A stretch of DNA of 64,000 nt, taken from Pyxidicoccus trucidator. GTDB taxonomy: Bacteria; Myxococcota; Myxococcia; Myxococcales; Myxococcaceae. Below the pieces are notes generated by a model. That model was not told the DNA's origin, did no database searches, and saw nothing but the letters and a program-made list of their open reading frames with translations. Shown piece after piece: positions 41,739-61,336 of the stretch (position 1 is the stretch's first letter; every line of letters starts with the position of its first letter). The stretch is taken from positions 1 through 64,000 of the forward strand of contig NZ_JAAIXZ010000027.1 in the NCBI RefSeq assembly GCF_010894435.1, given 5' to 3'. Made by a program: the position numbers and the translations under genes.

Positions 41739-42839
41739 TCAACCCTGTCGCTTAGGCACCACGAGGCCCTGGCTGAGCCGCTTGAGTACCCGCTGCTTCT
41801 GGCGCCGCTTGTAGGCCTCGTGGGCATTCTCTCCCAGTTCGTTGAGGCGCGCCGTCTCCTCGTCGACGATCTGGAACTCTACCAGCGAGATGACAATGCG
41901 GCCCTTGCGCTGGCGCGTGTCCTCCTCCGGCAGGGGCAGGTACGCGTCCATCCGCACCGGGATGTCCACGACGAAGTTGAGCGCCCGGTACGTGTTCCCG
42001 GAGAAGGTGTTGCCGTTGCGGTCCTCCCGGTCTTCGTAGTCGCGGTCCAGATGGAGCTGTGGCGTGTGCGCCTCGAAGTGGGGGTACTCCGCCAGCACGG
42101 ACTTGAACGGGATGAGCGTGTTCTCTGTCTGGCCCGGCACCACGAGGTGGAAGGGAAACAGCCGCTGCGTGAGGTAGTAGAGCACCGGCAACAGGTCTTC
42201 CCGCTTCCGCGTCACTACCCGGAAGCGCGTCCTGTCGTACACCTGCGCGGCCACCGTCTCCTTCTTGGCCAGCAGCTTGGTGACGAGCGAGTCCCGCGTC
42301 TTGATGGAGTGCGCGAACTCCACCACCGGCAGCCCCTTGGCCTGCATCTCCTCGGCGACGCTCAGCACCTTCTCCGTCACCAGCTCCGCCAGCTCCGCCT
42401 CGGACACCGCCAGGCGGAAGAGCAGATCACGCCCTTCGATGTGCTGGATGACGTGCATCACCTTCAGCACCACGCAGGCGATGCGGCGGTGACGGGGGGA
42501 GCCCTTCGCGCCGGAGGCCAGGAGGAACAGGTCGTGAATCTCCCCCGGCTGCGCCACCGCGTCCGCGACGCGGTAGTTGTACGTCTTGCGCAGGTACTCC
42601 ACCGCCTCCGCCAGCACCCCACGGGCCCAGGCGTCGTCGTAGGGCCGGGACACGTCGAGTTGGACGAGGCGCAGGAAGCGGTCCACCTCGTCCCGCGTCT
42701 GGAAGTGCATCCGCCGCCAGTCGATGACCGAGCCACCACGGAGGATGAGGCGGATGCGCTCAAGCTCGCGCAGGCCCATCTCCTCCACCGAGCGGATGGG
42801 GATGTCGGGCAGGACGGGGGTGAGCGAGGGGGGCTTCAC
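41739..42839 (-). CDS. RelA/SpoT-fold nucleotidyltransferase-like protein
   Basis: 366 residues, cytoplasmic. The C-terminal half follows the (p)ppGpp synthetase pattern. K180-x3-S184-x3-K188 (IKTRDSLVTK) matches the RxKxxxSxxxK nucleotide site without its first Arg. D202 and R207 (YDRTRFRV) match the DLxxIR metal motif. TYRALNFVV (283-291) matches the GYxSxH block. E321 and Q323 (VEFQI) match the catalytic EIQIRT, lacking the R-T. ENAHEAYKRRQ (337-347) matches the AAHWAYK motif. The order and spacing agree with Rel enzymes, so I infer the fold with good confidence and the activity with little. The N-terminal 170 residues are not the HD hydrolase or any domain I recognise. I believe this is the uncharacterised family TIGR04552 but cannot check. 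It converges with the Ig-like gene (52-base gap) and has no operon partner. Confidence 0.65.
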   Translation of the reverse strand: MKPPSLTPVLPDIPIRSVEEMGLRELERIRLILRGGSVIDWRRMHFQTRDEVDRFLRLVQLDVSRPYDDAWARGVLAEAVEYLRKTYNYRVADAVAQPGEIHDLFLLASGAKGSPRHRRIACVVLKVMHVIQHIEGRDLLFRLAVSEAELAELVTEKVLSVAEEMQAKGLPVVEFAHSIKTRDSLVTKLLAKKETVAAQVYDRTRFRVVTRKREDLLPVLYYLTQRLFPFHLVVPGQTENTLIPFKSVLAEYPHFEAHTPQLHLDRDYEDREDRNGNTFSGNTYRALNFVVDIPVRMDAYLPLPEEDTRQRKGRIVISLVEFQIVDEETARLNELGENAHEAYKRRQKQRVLKRLSQGLVVPKRQG

Positions 42840-42896: not shown

Positions 42897-42923
42897 GGCC
42901 CTTTCCCATGGGAGGAAAGGGCC
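42897..42923 (-). terminator. Terminator after the MORN-repeat gene
   Basis: GGCCCTTTCC (42897-42906) pairs perfectly with GGAAAGGGCC (42914-42923). It lies 26 bases past the stop; the downstream minus-strand sequence TTCGTGCTTT is moderately T-rich. Confidence 0.65.
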
Positions 42924-44778: not shown

Positions 44779-46863
44779 TCAGAAGGTGAAAGGGAAGTCG
44801 ATGGGATCGCCCTGCTTCTTGTGGCGGGGGAACGTCCAGCTCTTGATGAGCCCGGAGATGCAGCTCGCCATGTAGGTGGAGCGGAACTCGTCCGTCCGGC
44901 AGGAGACGGCCGTCGTCTTGCCGCTGGTCTGGATGGACCAGCGCATCACCAGCTTCCCGCTCAGCGCCGGGTCCTTCTTCTTCTGCTCGTTCACGCACTT
45001 GATGATGGCCGGCTTGTTGGCCAGCACCACCGCCATGACGTCGGACGTCTGCAGGCGCTCCGGCGTGGAGCCGCCGGGCTCGGGCGGCACGTACGCGGTG
45101 GGCCGCGCCTCGGGCTGCTTCGGCTCCGGCTTCGACTTCTTCGTGCCGAACAGCTCGTCGAAGTCGTCGTCACCGTCGCTCGAGGAGGACGGACGCTCCG
45201 CGCGCGTGGGCTGTCGCTCCTCGGGCTCCTCACGACGCGCGGAGGCCGTCGAGGTGGAAGGCTTGCGGGCCGTCCCGACGCGCTCCGCCTTCGCCACCAC
45301 CGTCTCCGCGGGCGGAGTCGCAGCGACTGGAGCCGCCGCGGGAGGCGGAGTCGCCGCGGCCGGAGCCGCCGCCACCACCGCCGGGGCCGCCGCAGGCACG
45401 GTGCCCGTGGGCGCCGCGGTGCCCGTGGCCGGAGCCACCGCCACCGTACCGCCCGCAACAGGAGCCGGCGCGGGGGTGGCCGGAGCCGGAGTCGCGGCAG
45501 CCGGCGCCGCCTGTGCCACGCCCGCGGGAGGCGGAGGCATGGGCGGCAGGCTCGGGTTCGCCGTCGCGGGGGTGGGCTGGGCCGCCGCCACTGGAGTGCC
45601 CGCGGGCACCTCGGTGCGGTTGCCGTTGTTCATGAAGAAGACCACCGCGCCACCGGCGACGATGAGCAGGCCCACCAGGGCGCCCACCAGGGCGCCCATC
45701 TTGTTCTTGCCCCCGCCCTGCGCGCCGCCAGGAGGCGGATACGCGGGCGAATAGCCCTGCTGCGGATACTGCGCGGCCATGGGCTGCTGCGCATAGGGCG
45801 CGGGCTGCGCGTAGTGCTGCTGCTGCATGGGCTGCTGCCCGTACGGCGCCTGCTGCTGCCCGTAGGGCATGGGCCCGGCCCCGGGAGACATCTGCGCGCC
45901 CATGGCGTCCGCGCCGCGCAGGGACGGCGAGGACACCGGCTCCGGCGGAGGCATGGGAACGTCGAGCAGCCGGGACTGGGAGACGGGCTCCCGGCCCAGC
46001 GGAGGCGCGGGCGTCGGCGGCGGCTTGGCGAGCGCGTCGTTCTCCTCCTTCACCAGCGAGGCCAGCACACTGGCCGCGGACGGCTTCCAGCCCACCGGCT
46101 CTTCGGAGGAAGCGGCCAGCACGCCGTCAGCACGCGACGCCTTGCCCGCGCTGAAGGCGGACTGCACCGGGCCCGAGGACACCGTGGGCGACGAGCCGGA
46201 CACCGGCTCGGGCGCAACGATGACGGGCTTGGACGGACGCGGCGCCAGCACGGAGGCCAGTTCGGAAGTCTCGGACAGCGGAATCCAGTCACTGAAGCCC
46301 GAGCGCCAGCACAGGCTGTCCGGCCCCACCTCGCCGCGGTCCCACAGGTCCTTCACCTTCTCGACGGTGAACGGGCCCACCTGCTTCTCGTCGATGGCGA
46401 CGTACCACTCGTGCGCGGCGGCGTTGGACTTCGCGTCCTCCTTCGCCGGCTCGGCCTCGGCCTCGGCCAGCTTGCGCACGCTCTCCGTGGTGGCGTCACG
46501 GGCCGCGGCCTCGCCGGCCGCCTCGCCCGCCGGAATCTTGTGCGTGCCCGAGCTGAGCACCTGGTCGAAGACGGCGCCAATCTCGTCCTCTTCCCAGTCC
46601 GTGAAGAGGCCGCCCTCGGGCGGAGTGCCGAGCGATGCGGGCATGGTGGCGGCCGACGACTCCGCCTCCTTGCCGGCGCCATTCTGGGTGGGAGGTGAAG
46701 AAGTCGCGGACTCCGGCGCGGAGTCCTTCGCGGCCGATGCGCCCGCGGGGCGCACGGTGATGGTGTGGCCGCACTTCTTGCAACGAACCTTGACCCCCTT
46801 GGGGCCAACTTTGTCGTCGCTAATCATGTACTGCGCGCGGCAGCTGTCGCAGACGAAACGCAT
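44779..46863 (-). CDS. agmX: Gliding motility protein AgmX/GltJ
   Basis: 694 residues, an inner-membrane component of the Agl-Glt gliding machine. N-terminal zinc ribbon with Cys5, Cys8, Cys28 and Cys31 (CDSC...CKKC); GYF-like domain at about 151-194 (WYVAIDEKQVGPF...DLW...W); Pro/Gln-rich linker; one membrane helix at about 387-412 (GALVGALVGLLIVAGG); long Ala/Pro periplasmic spacer; and the AgmX/PglI TonB-like C-terminal domain (about 607-694, SGKLVMRWSIQTSGK, KSWTFPR). In M. xanthus the cytoplasmic zinc ribbon is reported to bind the polarity GTPase MglA, which explains this layout. I chose the ATG at 46863 because the zinc ribbon begins immediately there, with GGAAAAG upstream; a longer frame adds 24 residues. 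It follows agmK by 134 bases and ends at a strong terminator. The C-terminal domain is shared with GltG at the right edge. Confidence 0.9.
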   Translation of the reverse strand: MRFVCDSCRAQYMISDDKVGPKGVKVRCKKCGHTITVRPAGASAAKDSAPESATSSPPTQNGAGKEAESSAATMPASLGTPPEGGLFTDWEEDEIGAVFDQVLSSGTHKIPAGEAAGEAAARDATTESVRKLAEAEAEPAKEDAKSNAAAHEWYVAIDEKQVGPFTVEKVKDLWDRGEVGPDSLCWRSGFSDWIPLSETSELASVLAPRPSKPVIVAPEPVSGSSPTVSSGPVQSAFSAGKASRADGVLAASSEEPVGWKPSAASVLASLVKEENDALAKPPPTPAPPLGREPVSQSRLLDVPMPPPEPVSSPSLRGADAMGAQMSPGAGPMPYGQQQAPYGQQPMQQQHYAQPAPYAQQPMAAQYPQQGYSPAYPPPGGAQGGGKNKMGALVGALVGLLIVAGGAVVFFMNNGNRTEVPAGTPVAAAQPTPATANPSLPPMPPPPAGVAQAAPAAATPAPATPAPAPVAGGTVAVAPATGTAAPTGTVPAAAPAVVAAAPAAATPPPAAAPVAATPPAETVVAKAERVGTARKPSTSTASARREEPEERQPTRAERPSSSSDGDDDFDELFGTKKSKPEPKQPEARPTAYVPPEPGGSTPERLQTSDVMAVVLANKPAIIKCVNEQKKKDPALSGKLVMRWSIQTSGKTTAVSCRTDEFRSTYMASCISGLIKSWTFPRHKKQGDPIDFPFTF

Positions 46864-46974
46864 CTTTTCCGTAAGCCTCGGAAATGACGGGAGAAATCCC
46901 GCATGAATCGTAGAAGTGCCCACCGGAGGGGTCAAGAATGGGTACCACGCCCGCCCGGCTGCTAATCAACGCGT

Positions 46975-46997: not shown

Positions 46998-49900
46998 CTA
47001 CTTGCGCACCTGCACCTCCACGTGGGTGCCGACAGCGACGCGCAGTTCGTGCAGGTCTTCGGAGGTGGCGAACACGAGCAGCTCCCGGAGCTTGGTGCGC
47101 ACGGGGACGCGGAAGGCGGACCCCGTCTCACCCTGCACCATGCGGCGCACCGGCTCCATCTCCCCCGCGGCGAAGAGTCCCGCGCGAGCGGCCGTCAGCT
47201 CAGCGCCCTCCAGGTACTGGCGGACGGCCTGGGGGGTGGCCGTGGGCAGCCAGGCCCGGGCCGCCTTGGCCAGCGCCGCGCGGTCCGGCTCGTTGAGGCT
47301 CTTCTCCAGCAGGCGCCGCTCGGGCTCCACCAGGTGCTGCGCCTCGGCGATGCGCACATTGCCCACCACGAGGCTGAGGGCCGCCTGGAGGATGGCCTCC
47401 AGCCGCTCCACCGCCACGCGCTGGCTGAAGGCCAGCTCCGGACGGGCCAGCGCCAGGGTGCGGCCCAGGAGGTAGTACACCTCCTTCTGTCCCTGCTCCG
47501 CGAAGTACTTGCCACCCACGCGCACGCAGGCCGGGTGCGTCTGCAGGAGCTCCGTGTTGATGAGCGGCTCGGGAGCCGGCTCGTTGGAGCGCTTGGCCAT
47601 GCGCTCGCGCGTGGCCACGAGGAAGGGCGAGTACAGTTCCACCGCGTCCATGCCCAGCATGCGCGCCACGTACCGGTAGTGGTGCACGTGGTACTCCTGC
47701 GCGCTGGCCACGTCGATGCGGTGCTTCTTCGGCACCAGCTGGTACTGCTGGTAGGGCACCGCGTACAGGTGGCCCGTCTTCGCGAAGAGCAGCCCCATCA
47801 GCTCGGCCAGCGGGCCGCGCGTCTTCGGGTGGAAGAGGTGGTTGTGCCAGAGCTGGTCGTTCAGCGGCCGCGGCTCGAGCGCTTCCTTCTTCTTCGCGTA
47901 GGGCCCCAGCTTGGTGAGGATTTCCTGCTCGTCCTCACCCGCCTCGCCCAGCAGGCCCGCCACCGCCTGCGCGGCCAGCCACGCCCCGTCGTAGTCCTTG
48001 CGCACCGCGCACAGCCGCACCAGCTGGCCGCACACCTTGCGCGGGTCCGTGGTGTTCGGCAGCGCGCGGCGCAGCGCCGCGATGGCCTCGTCCTCGCGGC
48101 CCGGAAGCTGCCCGGCGATGTCGGCGAAGGCCTCCTGCACCGTCGCGTCGTCGGGCAGGCCCTTGGCGGCCACGCCGTAGGCGGCCACCGCGCCCTCCGG
48201 ATGCTTGAGCACCTGGAGGTACAGGTCGCCGAGCGCGCGCCACAGCGCCATGCGCGCCACGTGCGTCTCCGGCGTCTTGGGCAGCCGGCCCAGCATCTTC
48301 GTGTAGTTCTCCTCCAGCGGCTTCCACTGGCGCGCCGCGCCGAGCATCGCCTCCAGCGCGCTGAAGGCCTCCACGAAGCGCGGGTCCAGGTCCAGGGCCG
48401 CGTTGAAGGCCTGGGTGGCACCCTCCACGTCCTTCAGGTCATCCCGGCGCAGCTCGCCCAGCGCGAACCAGACGCGCTTGGCCTTGTGCGGCTCCATGCC
48501 CAGCGCGGGCAGCGCCAGCATCCGCGCCAGCACGTCCGCGGCCTTCTGGCCCTGACGCGTCTCGCGCAGCAGCACGTAGAGCTGGTCCATCACCTCGGGC
48601 GCGTCGGGCTGCGCCTTGAGGGCCGTGGTGAAGGCGTCGATGGCCATGTACGGGTCGTGCAGGTGGTCTCGAGCGATGCGGCCCAGGTCCAGCGCCACCT
48701 TCGCCTTCGCCTCCCCTTCCAGCTCGCTCACCAGTTGCTGACGCAGCTCGGCGGACTTCTCGTACTGGCCCGCCTTGTCCATCAGCACCACCAGCGCGCG
48801 CAGCGTCGGCTCGTGGCCCGGGTCGATGGCCAGCGCCTTCTCGAAGTGGTTCTGCGCGCGGTCCGCCTGGCCGAGCGCGGCGTGGATGTCGCCAATCTGC
48901 CAGTAGACCTCCACCACCTCCAGGTCCGTCAGCTCCTCGCGGTGGTGGATGAGGATGGTCTGGAAGACCTTGAGCGCGCCCTCGTAGCGGCGCGTCTGCA
49001 CCAGGAGGTTGCCGTAGCCCTCCAGCGCGGGCAGGTACGTGGCATCCAGCTCGTAGGCCTTCTCGTAGCAGCTCAGGGCCTTGTCGCGACGGCCCAGCTT
49101 CTCCGCCACGTAGCCCAGGCGGTAGAGCTGGCGGCAGAGGTCCGCGGCGGTGACGGCGTCCTTCTCCGCCATCGCCTTCTCCGCCATCTTCCGCGTGACG
49201 ATGTCCAGCATCCGCTCGCCGGAGGCCCAGTCCTCGCGGGCGATGTAGACGTCCGCCAGCGGGCGCGCGGCCTCCAGGCTGTCCGGAATGTGCTTGAGGG
49301 CCTCCTGCCAGTAGCCGGTGGCGGTGTCGCGGTCCTCGCGCGTCTCCGCGTGGTAGCGCGCCACGTCCAGCAGCGCGCGGCCCTTGGCGGCCGGGTCCTC
49401 CGTCTGCTCCGCCTCCTGGCGCAGCGTCTGCTCGTAGCCGCTCCAGTCCTTCTCCTGCTCCTGGATGCCCTTGAGGGCGCGGATGCTGGGCAGGTGGCCC
49501 GCGTCAATCGCGAGGGCTTGCTGGTAGGCGCTCCGCGCGCTGCCGGAGTCCATCAGCATGTCCTCGTTGATCTTCCCGAGGCGGTAGTACAGCTCCACCG
49601 CGTTCGGTGTCTGGCCGGCGAGCTCCGCCTCCTTCGCCAGCATCTCCAGCGCGAAGGGCCAGTTGCCGCTGCGCTCGTACAGGTTGCCCAGCGCGTGCAG
49701 CGCCGGACGGCACGCGGGGTCAGCCGCGAGCGCCGCGTGGTAGCTGTTCACGGCCTTGTCGAGCGCCTTGAGCTGCTGGTACTGGACGTTGCCGATGTCC
49801 ACGTAGAGTTCGGCCTGCTCCTGCACGCTGGTGGCCAGCGAGAGCTGCCGCTCGTACGCGGAGATGAGGTCCTCCCAGCGGCCCTGCGTCCGGCGCAGGC

Positions 49901-52900
49901 GGATGAGTGCCTTGATGGCCTGGACGTTCTGCGGGTCGATGGAGAGCACCCCCTCCACGCAGACGTCCGCGTTGGCCGGGTTCTGGTACTTGTCCTCCCA
50001 GATGGTGGCGCTGCGGAAGAGGACGCGGACCTTCTCGCGCCAGTCCTCGCTCAGCTCCAGCATCCTCTCGTAGACGGCGAGCAGGTCCGCCGGCTGGTCC
50101 AGCTTCGTGTGCAGTTGCTCCAGGGCCTCCAGCGCGGTGCGGTTGACGGGGTCCAGCTCCAGCGCCTGCCGGTAGGCGGACACCGCGGCCTCGTCGTCCC
50201 CGAGGTCTCGCTCGTAGACGCCGGCCACCTCCACCTGGATGCGGGCCCGCTCCTCGGCCGTGTCGGCCAGGTCTCGCGCACGCAGCAGCGAGGACGCCAC
50301 GTCCGGCCAGGAGCGCTGCCGCCGGTACAGCGTGGTGAGCACGCCCAGCGTCTCCGCGTCCGGCTCCAGCTCCAGCGCGCGCAGCAGGGCGCTCGCGGCC
50401 TCCGCCGGGTCCTCCAGCTTCTCGTCCCAGACGCGGGCAATCTCCTTGAGGATGCCCTTGCGCTGCTCAATCGAGCCGGCGGCCTCCAGCTTCTGCTCCA
50501 GCGCGACGACGTACTCCTTGTCGCGCCCGCGCCGCTGGAACACCGCGGCCAGCCCGTCCAGCGCGGTGGCGTTGGTCGGGTCGAACTCGAGAATCTTCCG
50601 AAACGCGCCCTCCGCGGCCTGCGGGTCGTCCAGCCGCGTGTCGTGCACGCGCGCCAGCGTGGCGTAGAGGCGCTCGGCCAGCGCGCCACGAGGCAGCTCG
50701 TCCGCCACCTCCTCGTAGACCGCGGCCAGCTCCTCGTGGCTGCCCGTCTCGTCCGCCAGCCGCTCCACCTCCTCGCGGAGCGTGTCGTCCGAGGCGTCCA
50801 GCTGCAGCGCGCGGCACAGCGCGAGGAAGGCCACGTCCTTCTGGCCCAGCCGCTCCTCCTGCACCCGCGCCAGCTCGCGCAGCGAGGCCAGCTTCTCCTC
50901 GTCGGTGACGAGGTTGGGCATGTAGCGGTCCATCACCGTGGCGTACGCGCGCCAGTCGTTGTGCGTCTTGTACAGCCCGCGCACGCGCTCGTAGGAGGTG
51001 CGGTTGGCCGGGTCCAGCTCCAGCACCTTCTCCAGCGCGCCCGCGGCCTGCTCGGGCTTGCCGCCCTGCCCTTCCCACAGGTCCGCCACCGCGAAGTACG
51101 CGGCCACCGCGCGCTCACGCTCCTCGGCCGCCAGGTGCACCTGCACCTTGAGCTCCAGCGCGCGCACCGCGTCGTTCCAGGCGCGCAGGGACTCGAAGAG
51201 CGCATACACGCGCTCCAGGTCCGGCACGTGGTGCGGCTCCACCTCCAGCGCGCGGCGTGCCGCGTCCAGCGCCTCCTCGCGGCGGCCCATGCCGGCCAGC
51301 ACCTCGGCCAGCCGCAGGCGCAGCGCCTTCACGCCCTCGCTGTTCTCCTGCAGGGGCACGAGCCGGCGCAGCACGCCCACCAGCTCCTCGCGCTGGCCCG
51401 TCTCGTCATACAGCTCGCGCAGCGTGTCCAGCACGCCGCGGTGGCGAGGGTCCCTGTCCAGCGCGGCCTTGAAGTACGGCACCGCGTCTTCCGGCTGCTT
51501 CAGCAGGCGGTACACCACCCGGCCCAGCCGCTCGTTGAGGCGCACCACCTCGCGCGGGTCCAGCGTCACGGCCAGCCGGCCCTCCAGCAGCTCGCGAAGG
51601 TCCTGCGGACGGTCGGCGCGCTCGTACAGCGACTCCAGCGCGGAGAAGGCCTGCTCGTTGCGCGAGTTCTTCGCCAGCAGCTCGCGGTACAGGTCGATGG
51701 AGCGGCCCAGGTCCGACAGGCCCTCGGAGGACACCTGCGCCATCTTCCCCAGCACGCGGTCGCGCTCGGCGCCCACCACCTTGTCCGCCTGCAGCTTCAG
51801 GATGGCGTAGAGCTTCTCGGACGCGCCGGCGCTCTCGTAGATGCCCTCCAGCAGCCTCGCGGACGCCAGGTGCGCCGGCTCCTGCTTGAGGATGGCCTCG
51901 TACGCCCCGGCCGCGCGGTCCGGACTGTCCAGCCGCTCCTGGTAGAGCTGCCCCAGGCGGAAGAGGTAGCCCAGCCGGTCCGCGGGCTCGGTGGCCCCCG
52001 TCACCAGCGCCTCGAGGATGCCGGCCAGCTCCGGCCACGCCTCCAGGTGGAGGTACAGCCTGTCCAGCGCCACCAGCGCCTTGTCCTGCACCGCCGGGTG
52101 CAGCGTGCGCGCGCGCTCGTAGTAGGAGACCGCGCGGTCCGAGTCCCGCAGCTTCGTCTCCAGCAACTGCCCCAGCTTGAGGCACACCTGCGCAGCGTCC
52201 GCGGCCTCGGCCACGCGCGGCAGTGCTTCCTCGTACGCCGCCACCAGCTCGTCGTAGCTGTCGGAGGCGTCGGTGGCGTTCTCCAGCCGGCGGCGCACCT
52301 CGCCGTCGTTGGGGTCCTCCTTGAAGGCGCGGAAGAGGGCCAGGAAGGCCAGCTCCGACTCGCCCTGCGACTCGCGCAGCGTGGCCAGCTCGCCCAGGAG
52401 CGCCTTGCGCTCGGAGGCGTCGGTGGACACACCCACGCGGGTCTCAATCACCTGCGCCAGGCGCGGCACGTCCCCGCTGGCGCGGAAGGCGCGCAGCAGC
52501 GTCTCCACCGCGAGCAGGTTCTGCGGCTCGCGGGTGACGATGGCCTCCATGCGGCCCACGGCGCCCGGGTGGTTGGGCTGCACCGCGAGCACCTCGCCGT
52601 ACAGCGCCAGCGCGCCCGTCTTGTCCATCAGCCGCGTCTCGCGCACCGAGGCCAGGCGGAACTTCAGCTCCAGGCCGGACTCGGGCGGGAGGAGGGCAAT
52701 GCGCTTCGCCAGCGCGTCCGCCAGCTCGGGCCAGCGCTCCTGCTTCTGGCAGAGCGCCTCCATGCGCTCCAGCGTCGGCACGTCGTCCGGCTTCAGCTCC
52801 AGCAGGCGCCGGAAGGTGGCCAGCGCGCCCAGCGAGTCCTTGAGCTGCTCCTCCTGCAGCGTGCCAATCTGGAAGAGCACCGCGGCGCGGCGCGACGGCT

Positions 52901-55900
52901 CCTCCGCCACGGCGAGCTGGCGGCGCAGCACCTCCAGCAGCTCCGTGGGCTTGCCCTGTGAGGCCACCAGGCGCACCGTGCCGTCCAGCGCCTCGGTGTC
53001 CGAGGGCCGCAGCTCCAGCACGCGCTTCCAGGCGGTCAGCGCCTCGGCCTGCTCGCCCAGGTCCGTCTGGAGGCGGGCCAGCGCGCGGTACAGCTCGGCG
53101 CGGGACGCGTCCGCCGCCTTCATGGCCACTTCAACCAGCACCGAGGCGAGCTCCTCGGGCGCCTCCGCCTTGTCCACCAGCGAGACGCACAGCTCCAGCG
53201 AGCGCAGGTCGTCCGGCAGCTCGCGCAGCGCGCGAGTCGCCGAAACGAAGCCCATCTCCGGGTTCTCCAGCGGGCCGGCGTAGATTTCGGCGATGCGACG
53301 CAGGAGCGCGGCGCGCTCCTGGGGTACCGCCTCCGCCGAGGAGCGCGACTCCAGCATCTCCACCTGCTTCAGGTGGTTGCCCACCGAGGCGAAGATGGGC
53401 TCCAGCTGGCTGGCCGCGGCGCCACGCAACGGGCTGTCCGAGCGCGCCATCTCCTCCAGCGCGCCCACCGCGCCGGCATGCCCGGCCCGGCGCGCCAGCA
53501 CCGCCTGGTACAGCTCCAGCGCGCCGCGCGGGTCATCCAGGCGGGACACCTTGAGACGGCCCAGCCGCACCCGCAGGTCGGACGCCTCTTCCTGGGCGCC
53601 GCGCGCGTCCGCGAGCTGGATTTCACGCTCGATGTGCTGCGCCAGTTCCGGCCAGCGCTCCGTCTCCGCGAGCACCCGGCCCAGCAGCTTCAGCGCGTTG
53701 CCGTTCTCCGGCCGCAGGACGAGGACTTCCCGGTACGCCTGCGCCGCCAGCGACTTGTCCGCCAGCGTCTCCTCCGCCAGGTGGGCCAGCTCGAAGAGCA
53801 GATTCACCTGCGTGGCCGCGTTGGGCTCCGCCGCCACCTGCCGGCGCATGATGAGCGCCAGCTCACGGTGCGCGCCGGTGCGGCGGTGCACGCGGGCGAT
53901 GGACTCCAGCACACCCTTGTTCTTCGGATCCCTCCGGCTCACCTCCTCCAGCGCACGGACCGCGAGGTCGTAGCGCTTGAGGCGGTTGTCGTAGATGGCC
54001 GCCAGCCGCCGCCACAGGTCGCCGGCCAGCGGCTCCTGCGTGTCGCGCTCCAACTGGTCCTCGTACGCCCCGGCCACCTCCTCGAAGGAGCCCGAGTCCG
54101 CCGCCAGCCGCTCCAGCTCGTCCCGGACCGCGGCTTCCTGGGGGAACTCGTTGAAGGCCCGCAGGCGCGCGACGAAGGCGAGCGACGTCTGCCCCAGCGC
54201 CTCTCGCAGGGTGGCAATCTCCTGGACGTGCTCCAGCCGGCGCTCCGGAGCCACGCCGGGCAGCAGCACCTCCAGCACCTCCACCAGCTTCCGCGAGTCG
54301 TTGATGCCGCGGTAGACGGCCTCGAGCAGGCGCGCCGCTTCCACGCGCGGGCCGTCGTGCGCCATCAGTCGCTCCAGGCCGGCCACCACCTGGCCGTCAC
54401 CGGGCGCCAACTCCAGCAGCCGACGGTACACCGGCAGCGACTCGGCGGGGCCCACTTCCTTCTCCAGGAGCTGCGCGCGCTTCAGCAGCCAGCCCCGGCG
54501 CGCGTTGTCGTCCGCCGCCCCGTCCGCGAGCTGGTCCAGCACGTCCGCCTGCTCCGCGAAGCGCCGCGTCTTCGCGTACAGCTTCTCCAGCGCGAGCAGC
54601 CCCTCGGGCAGCTTCCGCAGCGCCAGCGCCGAGCGGTAGGTCTCAATCGCCTTCGCGTCCTCACCCGAGTTGGCGTACGCCTCGCCGGCCTTGAGCATCA
54701 GGCCCACGCGCTCCTCGGGGTCCGCGGACAGCTGCGCCTGGCGCGCATACACCTCGGAGAGGCTCTTGGCGTTCTGGCCCTTCTCGTACAGTCGCGAGAG
54801 GGCCTCCAGCGCCTGCCGGTCCTGCGGCGCGTCGGCCAGCAGGTTCTTCCAGAGGCGCGTGGCCTCCTCGGGCTGGTCCAGCGACTCGCGCACCTCGGCC
54901 GCCCGCCGGAGCAGGTCCAGCGCGGCCGGGTCACCGGACGTCAGCTCCACCGCCGCCGTCTCGTAGATCTCCGCCAGCACCTCGTGCGAGCCCGTCTCGC
55001 GCCCGAGCCGCTCCAGGTCCGGCCGCACGCCGTCCCGATCCAACCCCTGCGCGAAGGACTTCACCGCCGACATGAAGGCCAGCGACGGCTGGTGCATGTC
55101 GCGCTCGTAGATGCGGCGCACCTCTCCCGCGAGGAGGATCTTCTCCACGGTGAGGGCGGACTCCATCCGCGCCTCGCGCAGCGCCACGCGGCGGGCATGG
55201 TCGCCCACCTGCGCCAGCACCGGGTCCAGCACTTCCAGCGCCGCGCCGCTCGCGGGCACGGCCGCCTTCACCCACGCCTCCAGCGCGGCCCGCGCGCCCG
55301 GGTGTCCCGGGTCCTCGGCGAGGATGCGCTTGTAGAGGCCCAGCGCGGCGTTCGGGTCGTCCAGCACCGTGCGCTGCAGCTCCGCCAAGCGGAACGACAC
55401 CTCGCGGCCCTGCGGGCTCTGCCCCTCCTGGTTGCGGCGCAGCGCCAGCACCCAGGCGAGGTCCTCGTTCTTCCCGCCCTCGGTGTAGAGGCGGTCCAGC
55501 GTGGCCGCGGCCTCGCGGTTCGCCGTGTCCCGCTCGGCAATCGCGCGCCACGCCGCGGCGGCGCTTTCCTTGTCGGTGAGCCGCGTCTCGTGCAGCAGCG
55601 CGGCCTCGCGCAGGAACACCAGCTGCTCGGTGGGCTCCACCGTCACGGCGGCCAGCTTCTCCAGCACCTCGGCCAGCGCGGCCCACTCCTCGCCCGCGCG
55701 GTGCAGGCGCTGAAGGGCGCGGAGGCTGTCCAGGTTGCCGGGCTCCAGAGCCAGCAGCGCGCGGAGGGCCTTCACCGCACCGGCCTTGTCGTCCAGCTTC
55801 TTCTCCTGCACCTCGGCCAGCTCGCGCAGCAGCGCCAGCCGCGCCGGGCCCACGTCGCCCTCCTCCGCCAGCTCGGCCAGAATCTCGGCGTAGCTGTCCA

Positions 55901-58900
55901 GCGAGTCCGCGTCCTCCGCCGCCTGCCGGGCCGTGGAGCGCAGGCCCGCGTCACCCGGGGCCAGCCGCAGGGCGCGCGCCAGGGACGCGAAGGCCAGCTC
56001 CGGCTGACGCAGGTGCGCCAGATGCACCTGCGCCGCGTGCCGCAGCGCCTGCACGCGCGCGGAGTCGTCCTTCGCCACCTCGGCCAGCACGTCCAGCGTG
56101 GCCACCAGCTTGCGGTGGTCCTTGGTGCGCTCGAAGGCGGGCACCAGCACCCGCGCCGCGGCCTCACGCGCGGGGCCGGAGGCGAGCATGGCCTCCAGCG
56201 CGGCCAGCGCGTCCGGGTCCGTGGGGCGCTGGGTGAGGATGTCCGCGTAGCTCTGCACCGCCTCCGCGCTGCCGTCCTGCGAGCCCTGGAGCAGCTGCGC
56301 ACGGCGCAGCTTCAGGCGCGACACCTTGTCCGCCTCACCGGCCGACTCGGCCAGGGCAATCATCCGCGCCAGCGTGTCGCCCAGCTCGCGCGTGCGGCCG
56401 GCCTTCTCGTACAGCTCCGCCAGGCGCGGCAGGTGCCGCCCTTCCTCGGCGCCGTGCGACAGCGCGCCCTGCAGCGCCTCGGCGGCCTGCGCGGGACGCC
56501 CCAGCTCCGTGTTGAGGTCCACCAGTTGGAGCAGCAGCTGCAGGCGCTCCGGCCCGCGCGCGCCCTGGATGCGCTTGCGCAGCAGCCCCTCGGCGTCCGC
56601 CGCCCGACCCGCGCGGCCGTACAGCTTCACCAGCCGCTGAAGTACCGCGTTCGACTCGGGCGCGCGGCCCACCGCCGCCTCCAGCGCGGCAATCGCCTCC
56701 GCCGCCAGCCCGCCCTCCTCCGTCAGCGTCGCGGCCTCGGTGAGCAGCGGCACCGCCAGCGCCAGGTCCTCCGACTCGGAGGCCAGCGTGCGCAGCACGC
56801 GGCCGAGCTCCGCATGAGCCGACAGGTCGCGCGCCAGCCGCAGCGCCTCCGCGCGGCCGCTCTCGTCCTTCGGGTCCTCGCGCAGGGCGCGCATCCGGAC
56901 GTCGAAGGCGGCGCGGCTGTCGGCGAGCTGCTTCTCATGGATGCTGGCCAGCAGCGCGAACAGACGCTTGCGCTCAGCCGCCTCCGTCGTGGACTCCAGC
57001 TGCTGCTGGAGCGCCGCCACCTGCCGCTGGTGGTCACCGGTGCGGCCGTAGTGGGCCGCCAGCGCCTCGGCGATTTCCAGCGTGCGCACGCCCGCCGCCG
57101 CCAGCCGCTCCAGCCCGCCCACCACCACGCCGGTGGAGACGTTCTCCGCCAGCAGGCCGAGGAACAGGTCCGACGCGTCCTCCTGCCGGCCCAGCCGCTC
57201 CGCGTACAGCTTGCCCTGCCGGGCCATCCACTCGTTGCGCTCGAGCTGCGTCTCCGCCAGCCCCGCCAGCCGGCCTGCCAGCGCCGCCGCCTCGTCGAAC
57301 TTCGACAGCGCCACGCACAGCGCCTGCAGCCGCTGCACCGCCGACGGGTCCTCCGGCGCCAGCTGCACCAGCTGGCGCACCAGCGGCTCCAGCTCCTCGG
57401 GCGCCGCGCCGGCCGCCTCGCGGCGGGACACGTCCGCTTCCAGGCGGGCCTGCGGGTCGTCCGCGAGCGCCGCCGCCGACTGCAGCGACTTCACCGCCTC
57501 CGCCGCCGCCGCGTCACCGGGCGCACGCGCCAGCACCTCGCGCCACGCGGCCTCCGCGCGCGACGGGTCCGCCAGTGGCCCCTGGAGGAGCTGCGCCAGC
57601 TGGCGCCACAGCTGCGCCGCCACCTCGGGCAGCGGGGCCGCCTGCGCCGCGCGTTGCAGCGCCAGGGCCAGCGCGGGCTGCGCCTGGGCCTTCTCCGCGT
57701 GCTCAATCACCGAGCCGAGCAGCAATGGGCGCCCCGGGTCCAGCTCCAGCGCCCGCGCCAGCACCTCGAAGGCGCCGCGCGCGTCGTCCTTCTCCTCGAA
57801 CATCAGCGCGAGCGCCTCGCAGAAGGCCACCCGCTCCGAGCGCGGACGCGGCGCCAGCAGCGCCAGGTCCAGCAGCGGCACCACCGCCTCCAGCTCCTCG
57901 TCCTCGGCCAGCAGCCGCGCCAGCTGGAAGGCCGCCAGCGCCTGCGTGGCGTCCAGCTTCAGCGCCGCCTCCAGGTGCGTGCGCGCCGCCGTGGCGTCCT
58001 TCAGCTGCGTCAGGCACAGCTCCGCCAGGCGCAGCCGCATGGCCGCCTGCGCCCCCTTGTCCTTCACCGTGGCCAGGTAGCGCTCCAGCACCGCCACCGC
58101 GTCCGAGGCGCGCCCCTTCTCCAGCAGCAGCTCGGTGGTGAGGCTCGCCGCGTCCACGCGGGACGGGTCCGCCGCCACGGCCTTCTCGAAGGCGGCGAGC
58201 GCGCCGTCCCCGTCGTTCAGCTTGCCCAGCCGCAGCGTGCCCACGCGCAGCCACAGGTCCACCTGCGCGCCGCGGTCCTTGACCTCGCCCGCCATCGCCT
58301 CAATCTGGGCAATCGCCGGAGCGAAGTCGCCGCCGGCACGCTCGGCCAGCTTCTCAATCAGCGACAGGCCTTCCGGCATGCCCGGCCACAGCAGGAAGCA
58401 GCGGTCCAACGCCTCCTTCACCTTGCCCGTCGCGCCCGCGTCGTACCAGGCGAACAGCTTCGCCACGAGGAGCGACAGCCGGGCCGCGCTCTTCCGGTCG
58501 CGCTCCTCCAGCGACATGCTGCGCAGCATCCGCACGCGGTCTCGCCACGTGTGCTCGAAGCGCTGCAGCGCGCGCGTCGCCTTCTCCACGCGCGCGTTCT
58601 GCGGCTCCAGCGTCCGGGCGACTTCCAGCACCTTGTGCGCCAGCGCGTGCTCGGTGGGGTCGTCCACCAGCTTCTCGGCGAGCGCCGCGTACTCCTCGGC
58701 CATGCCCGCGTCGCCCAGCGCCTCACGCTCGCGCTCCAGCGCCTCGAAGACGGGCTGGAAGAGCTGCTCGGACAGCAGCAGCTGGCGCACGCGCCGGAAG
58801 ATGGCCCGGTCCGGCTTCGCCCGCGCCGCGCGTTGCAGGCACAGCACCGCCCTGTCGCGGCGGAACAGCTTCTGCTCGTAGAGGTCCGCCGCCTTGAGGT

Positions 58901-59276
58901 AGTGGCCCGCGCCCTCCTCGCCCTGCGTGGCGGCGCCCAGCCGCTCGAGCACGTCCGCCAGCGACGCCGCGTCCTGCCGCGTCTCGTGCAGCCGCTTCAG
59001 GCCCCGCAGCGCCGGCAGCGGGTCCTTGGCAACCAGCTGCGCTCGCTTGAGCAGCTCCTCGGCGCGGGGCGCGTTGCGCTGCCGCTCGTGGGCCAGCTCC
59101 GCCGCGCGGCACAGCAGGCGAACCGCCTCATCGGCGGGGACGTCTCGGGAGCGCCCCTCGTAGAGGCGGATCAGCTCTTCCACACGGCCGGCCTTCTCGA
59201 GGGCGGCTTCAGCTTCGACGAAGGTCCGGTCATCGGACACTCGGAGCGTGGGGCGCGGGGGCGTGGGCTGTTGCAT
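46998..59276 (-). CDS. agmK: Giant TPR gliding protein AgmK/GltI
   Basis: 4,092 residues, made almost entirely of tetratricopeptide-like helical hairpins: blocks such as AAxxYRxxLxLDPxNxxALxxLxxLYxxxGxWxELAxVLERxxxL recur through about the first 3,650 residues. The last 400 or so are different ([30 protein letters not shown]) and may form a separate capping domain. No signal peptide or membrane segment is seen. A giant TPR scaffold placed beside agmX and pglI identifies it as AgmK/GltI, required for gliding and for the regularly spaced protein clusters along the cell. The start at 59276 begins [13 protein letters not shown]; the frame runs 31 codons further up but through the terminator region, so the shorter form is preferred. 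The gene is uninterrupted. A terminator upstream suggests it has its own promoter in 59277-59367. Confidence 0.9.
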
Positions 59277-59367
59277 GGGGAGGCGGGCCTTGGGAATGGA
59301 ATGGAACGCAGCGGGGGCGCCAGCGACCGGAACTCTACCGGTCACAAGCGCCCCCGAGCAATCATGC

Positions 59368-59387
59368 AAAACCCGCCAAACGGCGGG
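59368..59387 (-). terminator. Canonical terminator between the TPR gene and agmK
   Basis: CCCGCC (59372-59377), loop AAAC, GGCGGG (59382-59387); on the minus strand the stem is followed directly by TTTTGC. It begins 17 bases after the stop of the RGG/TPR gene. Confidence 0.75.
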
Positions 59388-59404: not shown

Positions 59405-61336
59405 CTACTCAGCCGAGGGAGCGGCCGGGGGCGTCTCACCACCCTCGCCCGACTCTCCACCGTCCGCCGCGTCAGAAGCGGGAGGAGGGGCCACCGTCGG
59501 CGTCTCCGGAAGGGCGTTGGCCCGTTCCACACCGGCGGTGTCACCCAGCTGCGTGTAGAGGGCAATGGCCTTGTCACGCTGCTGCAGCTCTTCCGCGAGC
59601 TGGGCGGCGCGCGCCGTGTTGCCGAGCTTCTCGTGCAGGGGGAGCGCCTTGTCCTTGCGGCCGGCACCCTCCCAGGCCTCGGCGGCGGAGGCCGTCTCGC
59701 CGAGCAGCTCCAGCCACCGGGCACGGCCCGCCGGCTTCTGCTCCGCCTCGGCACGGGCCAGCTCGCGCTGGGCCAGCTCCTTCGCCTCGTCGTCCAGCTT
59801 CAGCCGCTGCATGAAGTGGAAGGCCTTGGGCGGCGGCAGGGGGCTGAGCACCTCCACCGCTTCACGGCGCTGGCCCACCGCCACCAGCAGGGTGGCGGCA
59901 CCGAGCCTGTCACCGCGCTCCACCAGGCCCTTCACCTCCAGGCCGCGGATGCGGTTGGCGCTGGCCATGTCCCGGGAGCGCTCGTACGACTTGCGCGCCA
60001 GGGTGAGCTTGCCGGCACGCTCGTAGGCGAGCGCCGCCTGGTCGAACTGGCGGGCGCGCTCGTACAGCCGGGCCACGTTCTCGAAGTCGCCCTTGCCCAC
60101 GTAGTGCTCCATGAGGAGCTCGTAGGCACCGGCCTTCTCCAGCGTGGGAGCGAGCTGGTCCGGGGGCAGCGTGCCCACCAGCCGGCGCGCGATGTCGTTG
60201 TCGCCGGCGGCCAGGGCGTTGCGCAGGGCGCTCTTGAGGTCCCCGCCCGCCTCGAACAGGCGCGCGGCGTCCGCGAACGAGTTGTTGCGCTCATGCAGCC
60301 GGCCCGCGTCGCGGGTGCGGCCCATGGCCTCCAGCTGTGCCACCTGCTCCTGCCAGGTGCCCGTCAGCTCGGGCAGCGGTCGCTCACCTCGCTCGGGGCG
60401 CTCGGGGCGCTCAGGCCGGGGGCCGCGCTCGGGACGCTCGCCCCGGGGCGGACGCTCCGGACGCGGACCGCGCTCGGGACGCTCGCCCCGCTCAGGACGA
60501 GCCCCACGCTCGGGTCGCTCGCCCCGCTCGGGACGGGCCCCGCGCTCACGGCGCTCCTCGGACCGGGGCGCCGGCGCGGCCTCCTCGGTCTCCGGGCCCG
60601 GCTGGCGGCCGCTGGCGGCGAAGGCCGTCTCGGCGCGCTCGCGGTCACCCGCCGCGCGCCAGGCCTGGCCCACCAGGAACATCACGTCCGTCCAGGCGTC
60701 GAACTTCTCCTTGGCCAGGTCCACCCCGGGCGCCGCGGGGGCAGCGGCCTCGGCGGGGGCAGCGCCCTCGACCGGAGCCTCGCCCTCGGCCGGAGCCGCG
60801 GCCTCACCCTCGGCTGGAGCAGCGGCCTCGGCGGGAGCCTCCACCGGAGCAGCGGCCTCCGCCGGAGCGGCAGCACCCTCGGCCGGAGCAGCCGACGCCT
60901 CGGGGGCGGGCGGCTTCGGCTGGCGCTGCACGCGCAGCAGCGTGGTGATGAGACGGCCACGCGTGTTGAGGTCCAGGTCGTCCAGGGACTTCAGGCGCAT
61001 GGGCCGCAGCGAGCGGACGATGGCCTGCAGGGGCCCCTTCTCCGCCACGAAGTCCGTCTTCGAGAGCGCCTTCTCCAGGGTGCTCAGCTCGGAGATGACA
61101 CGCTGGCCGGGGCCAACAGGGCCCTCGTCGCGATCTCTCCGGCCGCGGCCTCCGTCACGCCCACCAGGGCCACCGGGACCGCCACGACCACCGGGGCCAC
61201 CACCACGGCCACCGAAGCCCCCGCCGCCAAAACCACCGCCACCCGGGCCATCACGGCGCGGGCCCTGGCCCGGCGCACCCCCATCACGACCACGCCCACC
61301 GGGGCGCGGCCCACCGCTTCCATTCTCCTGAGGCAC
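59405..61336 (-). CDS. RGG-rich, TPR-like protein of the gliding cluster
   Basis: 643 residues. The N-terminus (1-75) is an RGG-type low-complexity stretch ([15 protein letters not shown]). Residues about 75-130 are folded. About 130-190 is Ala/Pro/Glu-rich, and about 255-325 is a run of ERPERG / RPERP repeats. Residues about 325-600 are TPR-like helical hairpins ([43 protein letters not shown]). No signal peptide, so cytoplasmic. The start is GTG at 61336 with a GGGAGA site; it is 12 bases after gltH, so the two are co-transcribed, and a terminator follows. In M. xanthus I recall small genes between gltH and gltI at this place, but I cannot match this one to a name. RGG boxes suggest RNA binding or condensate formation; that is inference. 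Confidence 0.75.
60370..60560 (-). repeat. Tandem in-frame ERPERG repeats within the TPR gene
   Basis: Degenerate short units (CGCTCGGGACGCTCGCCCCG and variants on the + strand) encode about ten ERP / RPERG turns. A likely length-variable, disordered linker. Confidence 0.75.

Follow-up and report, generated by a model that had tools for sequence, protein, structure and literature searches.

Described relatives by fold of the protein reported here include the small alarmone synthetases, which make the bacterial starvation signal (p)ppGpp, and the toxic enzymes that share their fold. In SaRelP, according to the accessible part of PMC5794853, R78 and R112 stack against the adenine and H190 contacts the ribose; K80, S84, K88 and R91 hold the phosphates, D107 and E174 bind magnesium, and Y151 receives the acceptor base. 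For FaRel2, the available portion of PMC11782079 names R64, R95 and Q147 as donor-site residues and describes a smaller positive acceptor patch that accompanies a tRNA substrate and no alarmone synthesis. The same portion presents those RelA-fold enzymes that use acceptors besides GDP/GTP chiefly as toxins; another case, in the accessible part of PMC6491832, is the pppApp made by a housekeeping Rsh. Here we describe a gene in a 64,000-nucleotide stretch of Pyxidicoccus trucidator DNA (hereafter the window). Its predicted fold and residue pattern suggest a stand-alone, active housekeeping RelA-fold pyrophosphotransferase with a remodelled acceptor site, a reading to which we give an even chance.

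The gene (41739..42839, minus strand), recognised as an open reading frame with an NCBIfam profile match, encodes 366 amino acids, with a GTG start and a TGA stop. The TIGR04552 model scores 411.8 bits against a curated cut-off of 125 over residues 24-357, and TIGR04562 likewise exceeds its cut-off of 140 with 358.3 bits; neither model name gives a function. An earlier note, made from the DNA letters and their translations, had spoken of an uncharacterised RelA/SpoT-like protein. That adjective still applies, but the protein already sat in a named family. Within the open-access literature subset, TIGR04552 is mentioned only as an annotation, in the accessible part of PMC9888234, and TIGR04562 was not found. 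Titles and abstract openings in that subset on RSH and SAS surveys, the active site, gliding, the nucleotidyltransferase fold and M. xanthus alarmones do not name the TIGR04552 family.

The Pfam RelA_SpoT family (PF04607) matches the window protein at 20.6 bits (E 5.6e-4), below its gathering score of 27. In alignment A2, 30 of the 53 members match PF04607 at E≤0.01 (best 3.6e-6), and it is the sole Pfam family matched there, so the weak match of the single protein is not a chance one. A2 comprises 53 of a 55-sequence set from which the partial sequences L084, L124 and L125 were left out; alignment A1 holds 36 of the 50 loci and A4 holds 35 of them. Among the 50 loci the best relative is that of Pyxidicoccus caerfyrddinensis, which shares 94% identity across 366 aa. 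Only this copy of the gene was found in its own 12.7 Mb genome, the one further match having an E value of 0.33. A protein with 88% identity to that of the window occurs in a record labelled Comamonas sp. KCTC 72670 (L039, BNCN01000006.1), which is probably mislabelled, given this degree of identity to a myxobacterial protein.

An AlphaFold2 model of the window protein, built with 37 sequences, reached a pLDDT of 84.7 and a pTM of 0.82. When this model was compared with the PDB by Foldseek, all 36 matches at E≤0.001 belonged to the RelA/SpoT family (RelP, RelQ, Rel, RelA and close relatives), headed by RelP 6ewz at E 2e-5; among the matches listed, the superpositions fit loosely, with TM-scores from 0.24 to 0.31 by query and no higher than 0.56 by target, and with an rmsd of 9-25 Å. 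In contrast, VIA-align gave a tight superposition, the best being 5ded (Z 10.5 over 146 residues, 2.9 Å, 17% identity). Long Rel and RelA scored a Z of about 10 by the same method, and DNA polymerase lambda 7.1 at best. The structural match spans about residues 145-345, and these tools together with hhalign and Pfam delimit a SYNTH (RelA/SpoT-type nucleotidyltransferase) domain at residues 145-350 (41790..42407, minus strand). By its predicted structure, the window protein has a SYNTH fold. The check that the earlier note had proposed, a structure prediction compared with Rel and small alarmone synthetases, returned their fold and not a different one.

By sequence, a PDB search with the single window protein found nothing, and a search with the A2 profile returned no Rel or SAS chain, only two weak RNA-directed RNA polymerase chains at E 0.5. 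Comparison with the Rel of the same genome by blastp gave no meaningful alignment. An hhalign alignment of profiles against seven long Rel proteins has an E value of 0.013 and a reported probability of 3.3%, which is weak by itself. In this alignment the window motifs fall on Rel K255, S259, K263, D276, R281, Y320, E336, Q338, H355 and Y358 (Rel residues are numbered as in the Rel of the same genome), and E334, G336 and K344 also fall on Rel counterparts. The Lys-Ser-Lys, Asp-Arg, Tyr-Arg (Y284-R285), Glu-Gln and His-Tyr motifs that the earlier note had read as being in the right order are all there in the order of Rel. D202 and E321, whose match to the Rel active site the same note had singled out, are placed by the profile alignment on the Rel Asp and Glu.

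Conservation was assessed in 67 sequences, obtained by cutting 157 collected sequences at 80% identity and drawn from Myxococcota, three further phylum groups and G330, one genome of a group not searched whole. Fetched copies with a phmmer coverage below 300 residues (L162, L166 and L174) were left out; L138, L144 and L149, of the same group as the dropped copies, were kept despite short phmmer matches. The putative ATP phosphate-binding motif K180-x3-S184-x3-K188 (42276..42302, minus strand) has K180 in 67/67 and S184 and K188 each in 65/67. It is followed by a segment (42219..42236, minus strand) that runs from D202, the predicted catalytic Mg ligand (67/67; Rel D276), to R207, the predicted second adenine-stacking Arg (61/67; Rel R281). 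The stretch E321-F-Q323-I-V-D326 (41862..41879, minus strand) would provide the second catalytic acid (E321, 67/67) and the adenine-contact Gln (Q323, 65/67), along with an invariant Asp (D326, 67/67). Beyond it lies N333-E-x-G336-x3-H340-x2-Y343-K-x-R346 (41802..41843, minus strand), the counterpart of Rel AExGxAAHWxYK, in which G336 and H340 are each kept in 66, Y343 in 67 and R346 in 62 of the 67. The residues invariant throughout are K180, D202, E321, D326, Y343, R354, S37, P235 and N240.

Set against SaRelP as described in the accessible text, counterparts of K80, S84, K88, D107, R112, Y151 and E174 are kept in the window protein. Donor-site residues as in SaRelP and FaRel2 are kept except for the first Arg, and the position of RelP R91, placed by counting, is taken by A191, directly beside K192 (kept in 65/67). 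Rel R253, an adenine-stacking Arg, is aligned with S178 just before the K180 motif, and position 178 is Ser in 37, Gly in 17 and Asn in 13 of the 67 sequences, so that the first adenine-stacking Arg is absent from every one. Both of these Arg (R78 and R112 of SaRelP) would be expected of a (p)ppGpp synthetase, and only the second, R207, is retained, in 61/67. The loss of one of them in all members could mean another donor or weak catalysis. The earlier note had correctly listed this Arg as replaced, together with the Arg-Thr after EIQI, where Rel R340-T341 correspond to V325-D326.

Two readings deny the protein an activity. The earlier note had allowed for a dead regulatory copy; alternatively, the protein could be a catalytically silent member of the SYNTH fold that serves as a nucleotide- or RNA-binding sensor or scaffold, which would suit both the loss of one of the two adenine-stacking Arg in 67/67 and an added domain that has no PDB match. 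Inactive enzyme copies, however, are expected to lose their metal acids and phosphate Lys, and here neither the two metal acids nor the first phosphate Lys varies between the groups. Furthermore, when the window gene was compared pairwise with 10 others, dN/dS was 0.067-0.157, in several comparisons with dS above 0.8. A dead copy is disfavoured because the catalytic residues are invariant in 67 divergent sequences and the gene is under purifying selection, and a silent sensor or scaffold strikes us as improbable.

The acceptor side is altered relative to Rel. The G-loop equivalent N277-N288 (41976..42011, minus strand) carries Y284, the putative base-stacking residue, which is Tyr in 61 and Phe in six of the 67 sequences; a G-loop Tyr that stacks the acceptor base is expected of a (p)ppGpp synthetase. 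Within the same loop S280 is Ser in 66 and Thr in one, and N288, aligned with the Rel His (H324), is Asn in 54, Lys in five, Gln in five, His in two and Ser in one. From the Pro-Gly pair (P235-G236; Rel P305-G306) to the G-loop Tyr there are 48 residues versus 14 in Rel, a stretch 34 longer. In the hhalign columns Rel R307 is aligned with Q237 (Q48 R6 of 67) and Rel K309 with K246 (K18 R11 of 67), while the G-loop Lys K316 falls on variable position 275 by hhalign and on S280 if residues are counted backwards from the Tyr. Ahead of the G-loop Tyr the alignment is uncertain, and block 271-280 has a pLDDT of 48 in the AlphaFold2 model. Two conserved basic residues, R285 (R45 K7 of 67) and R296 (60/67), may compensate for a less basic acceptor side, where a (p)ppGpp synthetase is expected to have a basic patch. 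After the ExQ motif the Arg-Thr is replaced, and Asp326, found in 67/67, stands at the Thr position.

Because the stretch from Pro-Gly to Tyr is longer, its basic residues appear mostly not to be kept and Asp326 replaces Thr, the acceptor would more likely be something other than plain GDP/GTP, such as a different nucleotide or an RNA 3′ end. By analogy with the FaRel2 patch, as given in the accessible part of PMC11782079, we infer a changed acceptor for TIGR04552. Of the possibilities named in the earlier note, a divergent alarmone synthetase and an enzyme with another nucleotide product both stay compatible with these observations. A contrasting possibility is a divergent but ordinary (p)ppGpp/pGpp small alarmone synthetase, a second source of ppGpp with its own sensor domain, used for starvation, development or predation. 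The closest solved folds are indeed (p)ppGpp synthetases (RelP, RelQ and Rel), the G-loop Tyr is kept, and E-x-G-x3-H-x2-Y-K is common to Rel. Such an enzyme would nevertheless have to work with the first adenine Arg, the G-loop His and the Arg-Thr after ExQ all replaced, and with no conserved Lys before the G-loop Tyr.

The occurrence of Rel itself bears on the same alternative. An ordinary Rel is encoded elsewhere in the same genome (C9; 752-aa ORF with a TTG start, 147 bits to PF04607), and in 26 of the 28 genomes belonging to one other phylum group a separate long Rel-type ORF exceeds the cut-off of PF04607. The two exceptions are genomes that are 59% and 65% complete, in which only the TIGR04552 gene matches PF04607. 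With a dedicated Rel already in place, a second ordinary ppGpp source is harder to explain. A weak hint in its favour comes from Bdellovibrio sp. NC01, in which, according to the accessible part of PMC9888234, a single-base deletion in the TIGR04552-annotated gene rose to more than 75% in one of six lines. Such a deletion would fit a role in starvation, but because all six lines gained starvation survival in that experiment, no effect can be assigned to it. Taking both sides together, we consider an ordinary small alarmone synthetase unlikely without dismissing it. As a separate observation, in G332 and its relatives (genus g182) PF04607 matches the long Rel-like ORF at 64-81 bits, against 105-146 in the other genera that have such an ORF; the Rel-like synthetase domain may be degenerate there while the TIGR04552 gene is intact.

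TIGR04552 was found at E≤0.001 in 157 of 195 Myxococcota genomes (153 over the cut-off), mostly as one copy, in 6/46, 7/9 and 28/28 genomes of three other phylum groups, and in 0/14 control genomes. A broad genome set, in which many genomes of the 195-genome Myxococcota set are repeated, gave 163/384. By annotation, Bdellovibrio sp. NC01 also has a member (PMC9888234, Table 1, accessible in part). Two oddities of copy number deserve mention. One genome (G069) has four TIGR04552 matches versus one in nearly all others, and with a contamination of 7% these are not proven paralogs. A gene apparently split into two HMM pieces in genus g34 proved, in the one case examined (L123), to be a single open frame with a shorter variable stretch.

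This distribution speaks against a toxin. A toxSAS, a toxin that belongs to a toxin-antitoxin or defence system and either pyrophosphorylates tRNA or synthesises (p)ppApp, would be compatible with the fold and with the altered acceptor side, and in one group (L168-L172) a 154-166 aa ORF lies directly downstream on the same strand at 5/5 loci, with an Mrr_cat nuclease domain in L168. This small ORF is a possible functional partner in that group. The patchy, mobile distribution of toxSAS enzymes contrasts with a gene that is near-universal and mostly single-copy within groups (28/28 and 157/195 genomes, though 6/46 in another); a tblastn search of a plasmid collection and a search of viral contigs with six exact peptide patterns found no relative, and no PADLOC model matches the gene. 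No antitoxin was recognised in the window or, by Pfam, among the neighbours at eight other loci; in L168 the Mrr_cat ORF adjoins the gene. The neighbours named at other loci are of another kind: a PHP protein, GH57, DJ-1/PfpI, a Mur ligase, Lon, adenylate kinase, enolase, and two-component and Fe-S genes, with gltJ in the window. We regard a toxin as very unlikely.

The gltJ neighbourhood raises the possibility that the protein belongs to the Glt gliding machinery or regulates it. In the window the TIGR04552 gene lies downstream of gltJ (44779..46935, minus strand; NF033761, 914.5 bits), which encodes adventurous gliding motility protein GltJ, and genes for a Cys-rich protein and a repeat-type protein lie between the two. 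A gltI-like gene for a putative giant repeat (TPR-type) protein of 4123 aa (46998..59369, minus strand) has the order and length of M. xanthus gltI in Table 1 of PMC3169522, and gene order and lengths upstream match the M. xanthus G1 gliding cluster as far as that source was accessible. From gene order, M. xanthus MXAN_4859 would be the counterpart of the window gene, which is only a guess. On the other side of the TIGR04552 gene, a surface-type protein gene and ffh follow on the other strand. No consensus promoter or T-run terminator was found around the gene in the window.

Two further features of this region were noted. An inverted repeat of 10 bp without mismatches, with a loop of 7 bases (42897-42923), lies between the TIGR04552 gene and its upstream neighbour; it has no minus-strand T-run and might be a terminator of a different type. 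Flanked by the gltH-like and gltI-like genes there is an intact 643-aa ORF (59405-61336, minus strand), in the slot of M. xanthus MXAN_4864/4865, which are called likely pseudogenes in the accessible part of PMC3169522. Because this frame is open in the window, the slot may hold a real gene.

Across loci, a GltJ-like gene was found by BLAST clustering in 31/49, always on the same strand, a count that includes the window and eight close relatives. With an HMM made from an overlapping set, a GltJ-like gene of at least 100 bits lies upstream on the same strand within 3 kb in 23/40 Myxococcota loci, and in 11 of those 23 the open frames abut or overlap with it. The other 17 comprise three loci with GltJ-like matches at 43-61 bits in that same position, one with a weak match on the opposite strand and 13 with none. 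In the fetched flanks of 18 loci from the three other phylum groups and G330, some of them on short contigs, no GltJ-like gene was found (0/18). Genome-wide co-occurrence of GltJ was not used as evidence, as NF033761 matches 190/193 genomes (93 over its cut-off) and 4/14 controls (none over the cut-off).

The range of Group A glt genes, Myxococcales plus Bdellovibrionales in the available part of PMC3169522, resembles that of TIGR04552 and would fit a Glt role. Since the link is missing at all 18 loci outside Myxococcota, however, it probably reflects the inherited gene order of a housekeeping gene. Also against a Glt role, 13 of the 40 Myxococcota loci show no match and two genes separate gltJ from the TIGR04552 gene in the window; old gene order would account for the linkage equally well. 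A Glt role would concern where the protein acts and is compatible with pyrophosphotransferase chemistry. We hold such a role to be distinctly improbable.

The N-terminal part of the protein forms a predicted all-helical domain of residues 1-144 (42408..42839, minus strand; AlphaFold2, Foldseek and VIA). When residues 1-151 were modelled alone (pLDDT 74.5), the model matched nothing in the PDB, with a best Foldseek E of 2.8 and a VIA Z of at most 3.7. The earlier note had assigned the N-terminal 170 residues to no domain; the absence of a match is borne out, but the extra domain is nearer 144 residues, because the SYNTH structural match starts at about residue 145. The domain is included in the TIGR04552 family model itself. 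That note's description of a protein without hydrolase or TGS domains agrees with our searches, as Pfam gave no HD or TGS at E≤5 and the fold search gave, at E≤0.001, only the RelA/SpoT family. The idea of a remnant HD hydrolase at the N terminus was unsupported by Pfam and by the fold search, judged from the families in the fold tables.

On our preferred reading, an active pyrophosphotransferase with a remodelled acceptor site, the SYNTH domain would bind ATP-Mg via D202/E321, K180/S184/K188, R207 and Q323. The β,γ-pyrophosphate would be moved to the 3′-hydroxyl of an acceptor, the base of which would be stacked against Y284, and the helical N-terminal domain would serve in regulation or in recognising the acceptor. 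The activity itself, ATP as donor, the changed acceptor and the N-terminal role are deductions; what was observed is the sequence, the family, the predicted fold, the conservation, the distribution and a Rel elsewhere in the genome. The fold is a known one and the chemistry probably is too, in a named family. It is set apart by the absence of one of the two adenine-stacking Arg of (p)ppGpp synthetases, by a score below the Pfam gathering threshold and by an extra domain without a known fold match.

A bolder form of this reading, which we hold tentatively and at somewhat less than an even chance, is that the family represents an ancient second RelA-fold enzyme of nucleotide signalling or RNA modification, core to Myxococcota and allied groups, with a non-GDP/GTP acceptor and an N-terminal sensor of new fold. 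Annotated in predatory Bdellovibrio too, it would be a housekeeping match for activities that are so far familiar chiefly from toxins. If true, a near-universal second SYNTH enzyme beside a normal Rel in predatory and social bacteria would widen the alarmone field, and it could explain part of the starvation handling of these bacteria.

Among known systems, RelP and RelQ (SAS2 and SAS1) share with TIGR04552 the SYNTH fold, the K-x3-S-x3-K motif, the catalytic Asp/Glu, the second adenine Arg and the G-loop Tyr. They differ from it in that TIGR04552 has no first adenine Arg, has a longer stretch without a conserved Lys before the G-loop Tyr, and carries about 144 additional residues as an N-terminal domain. 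Long RSH proteins (Rel, RelA and SpoT) resemble it in the SYNTH core, in the E-x-G-x3-H-x2-Y-K segment after the second acid and in having the added domain at the N terminus. In contrast to them, TIGR04552 has no HD hydrolase, TGS or ACT (Pfam, E≤5), its ORF ends soon after SYNTH, and its N-terminal model matches nothing in the PDB. The SAS subgroups of the 2011 RSH survey (e.g. bdRel of beta/delta-proteobacteria), compared by their description in the accessible part of PMC3153485, include synthetase-only proteins in deltaproteobacteria, and the TIGR04552 family may have been counted there under another name. Finally, toxSAS enzymes (FaRel2, CapRel and FaRel) and Tas1 share the fold and an altered acceptor side, the latter for FaRel2 by the published description (PMC11782079, accessible in part). 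They differ from TIGR04552, for which no antitoxin was recognised among the examined neighbours and which is a core, mostly single-copy gene.
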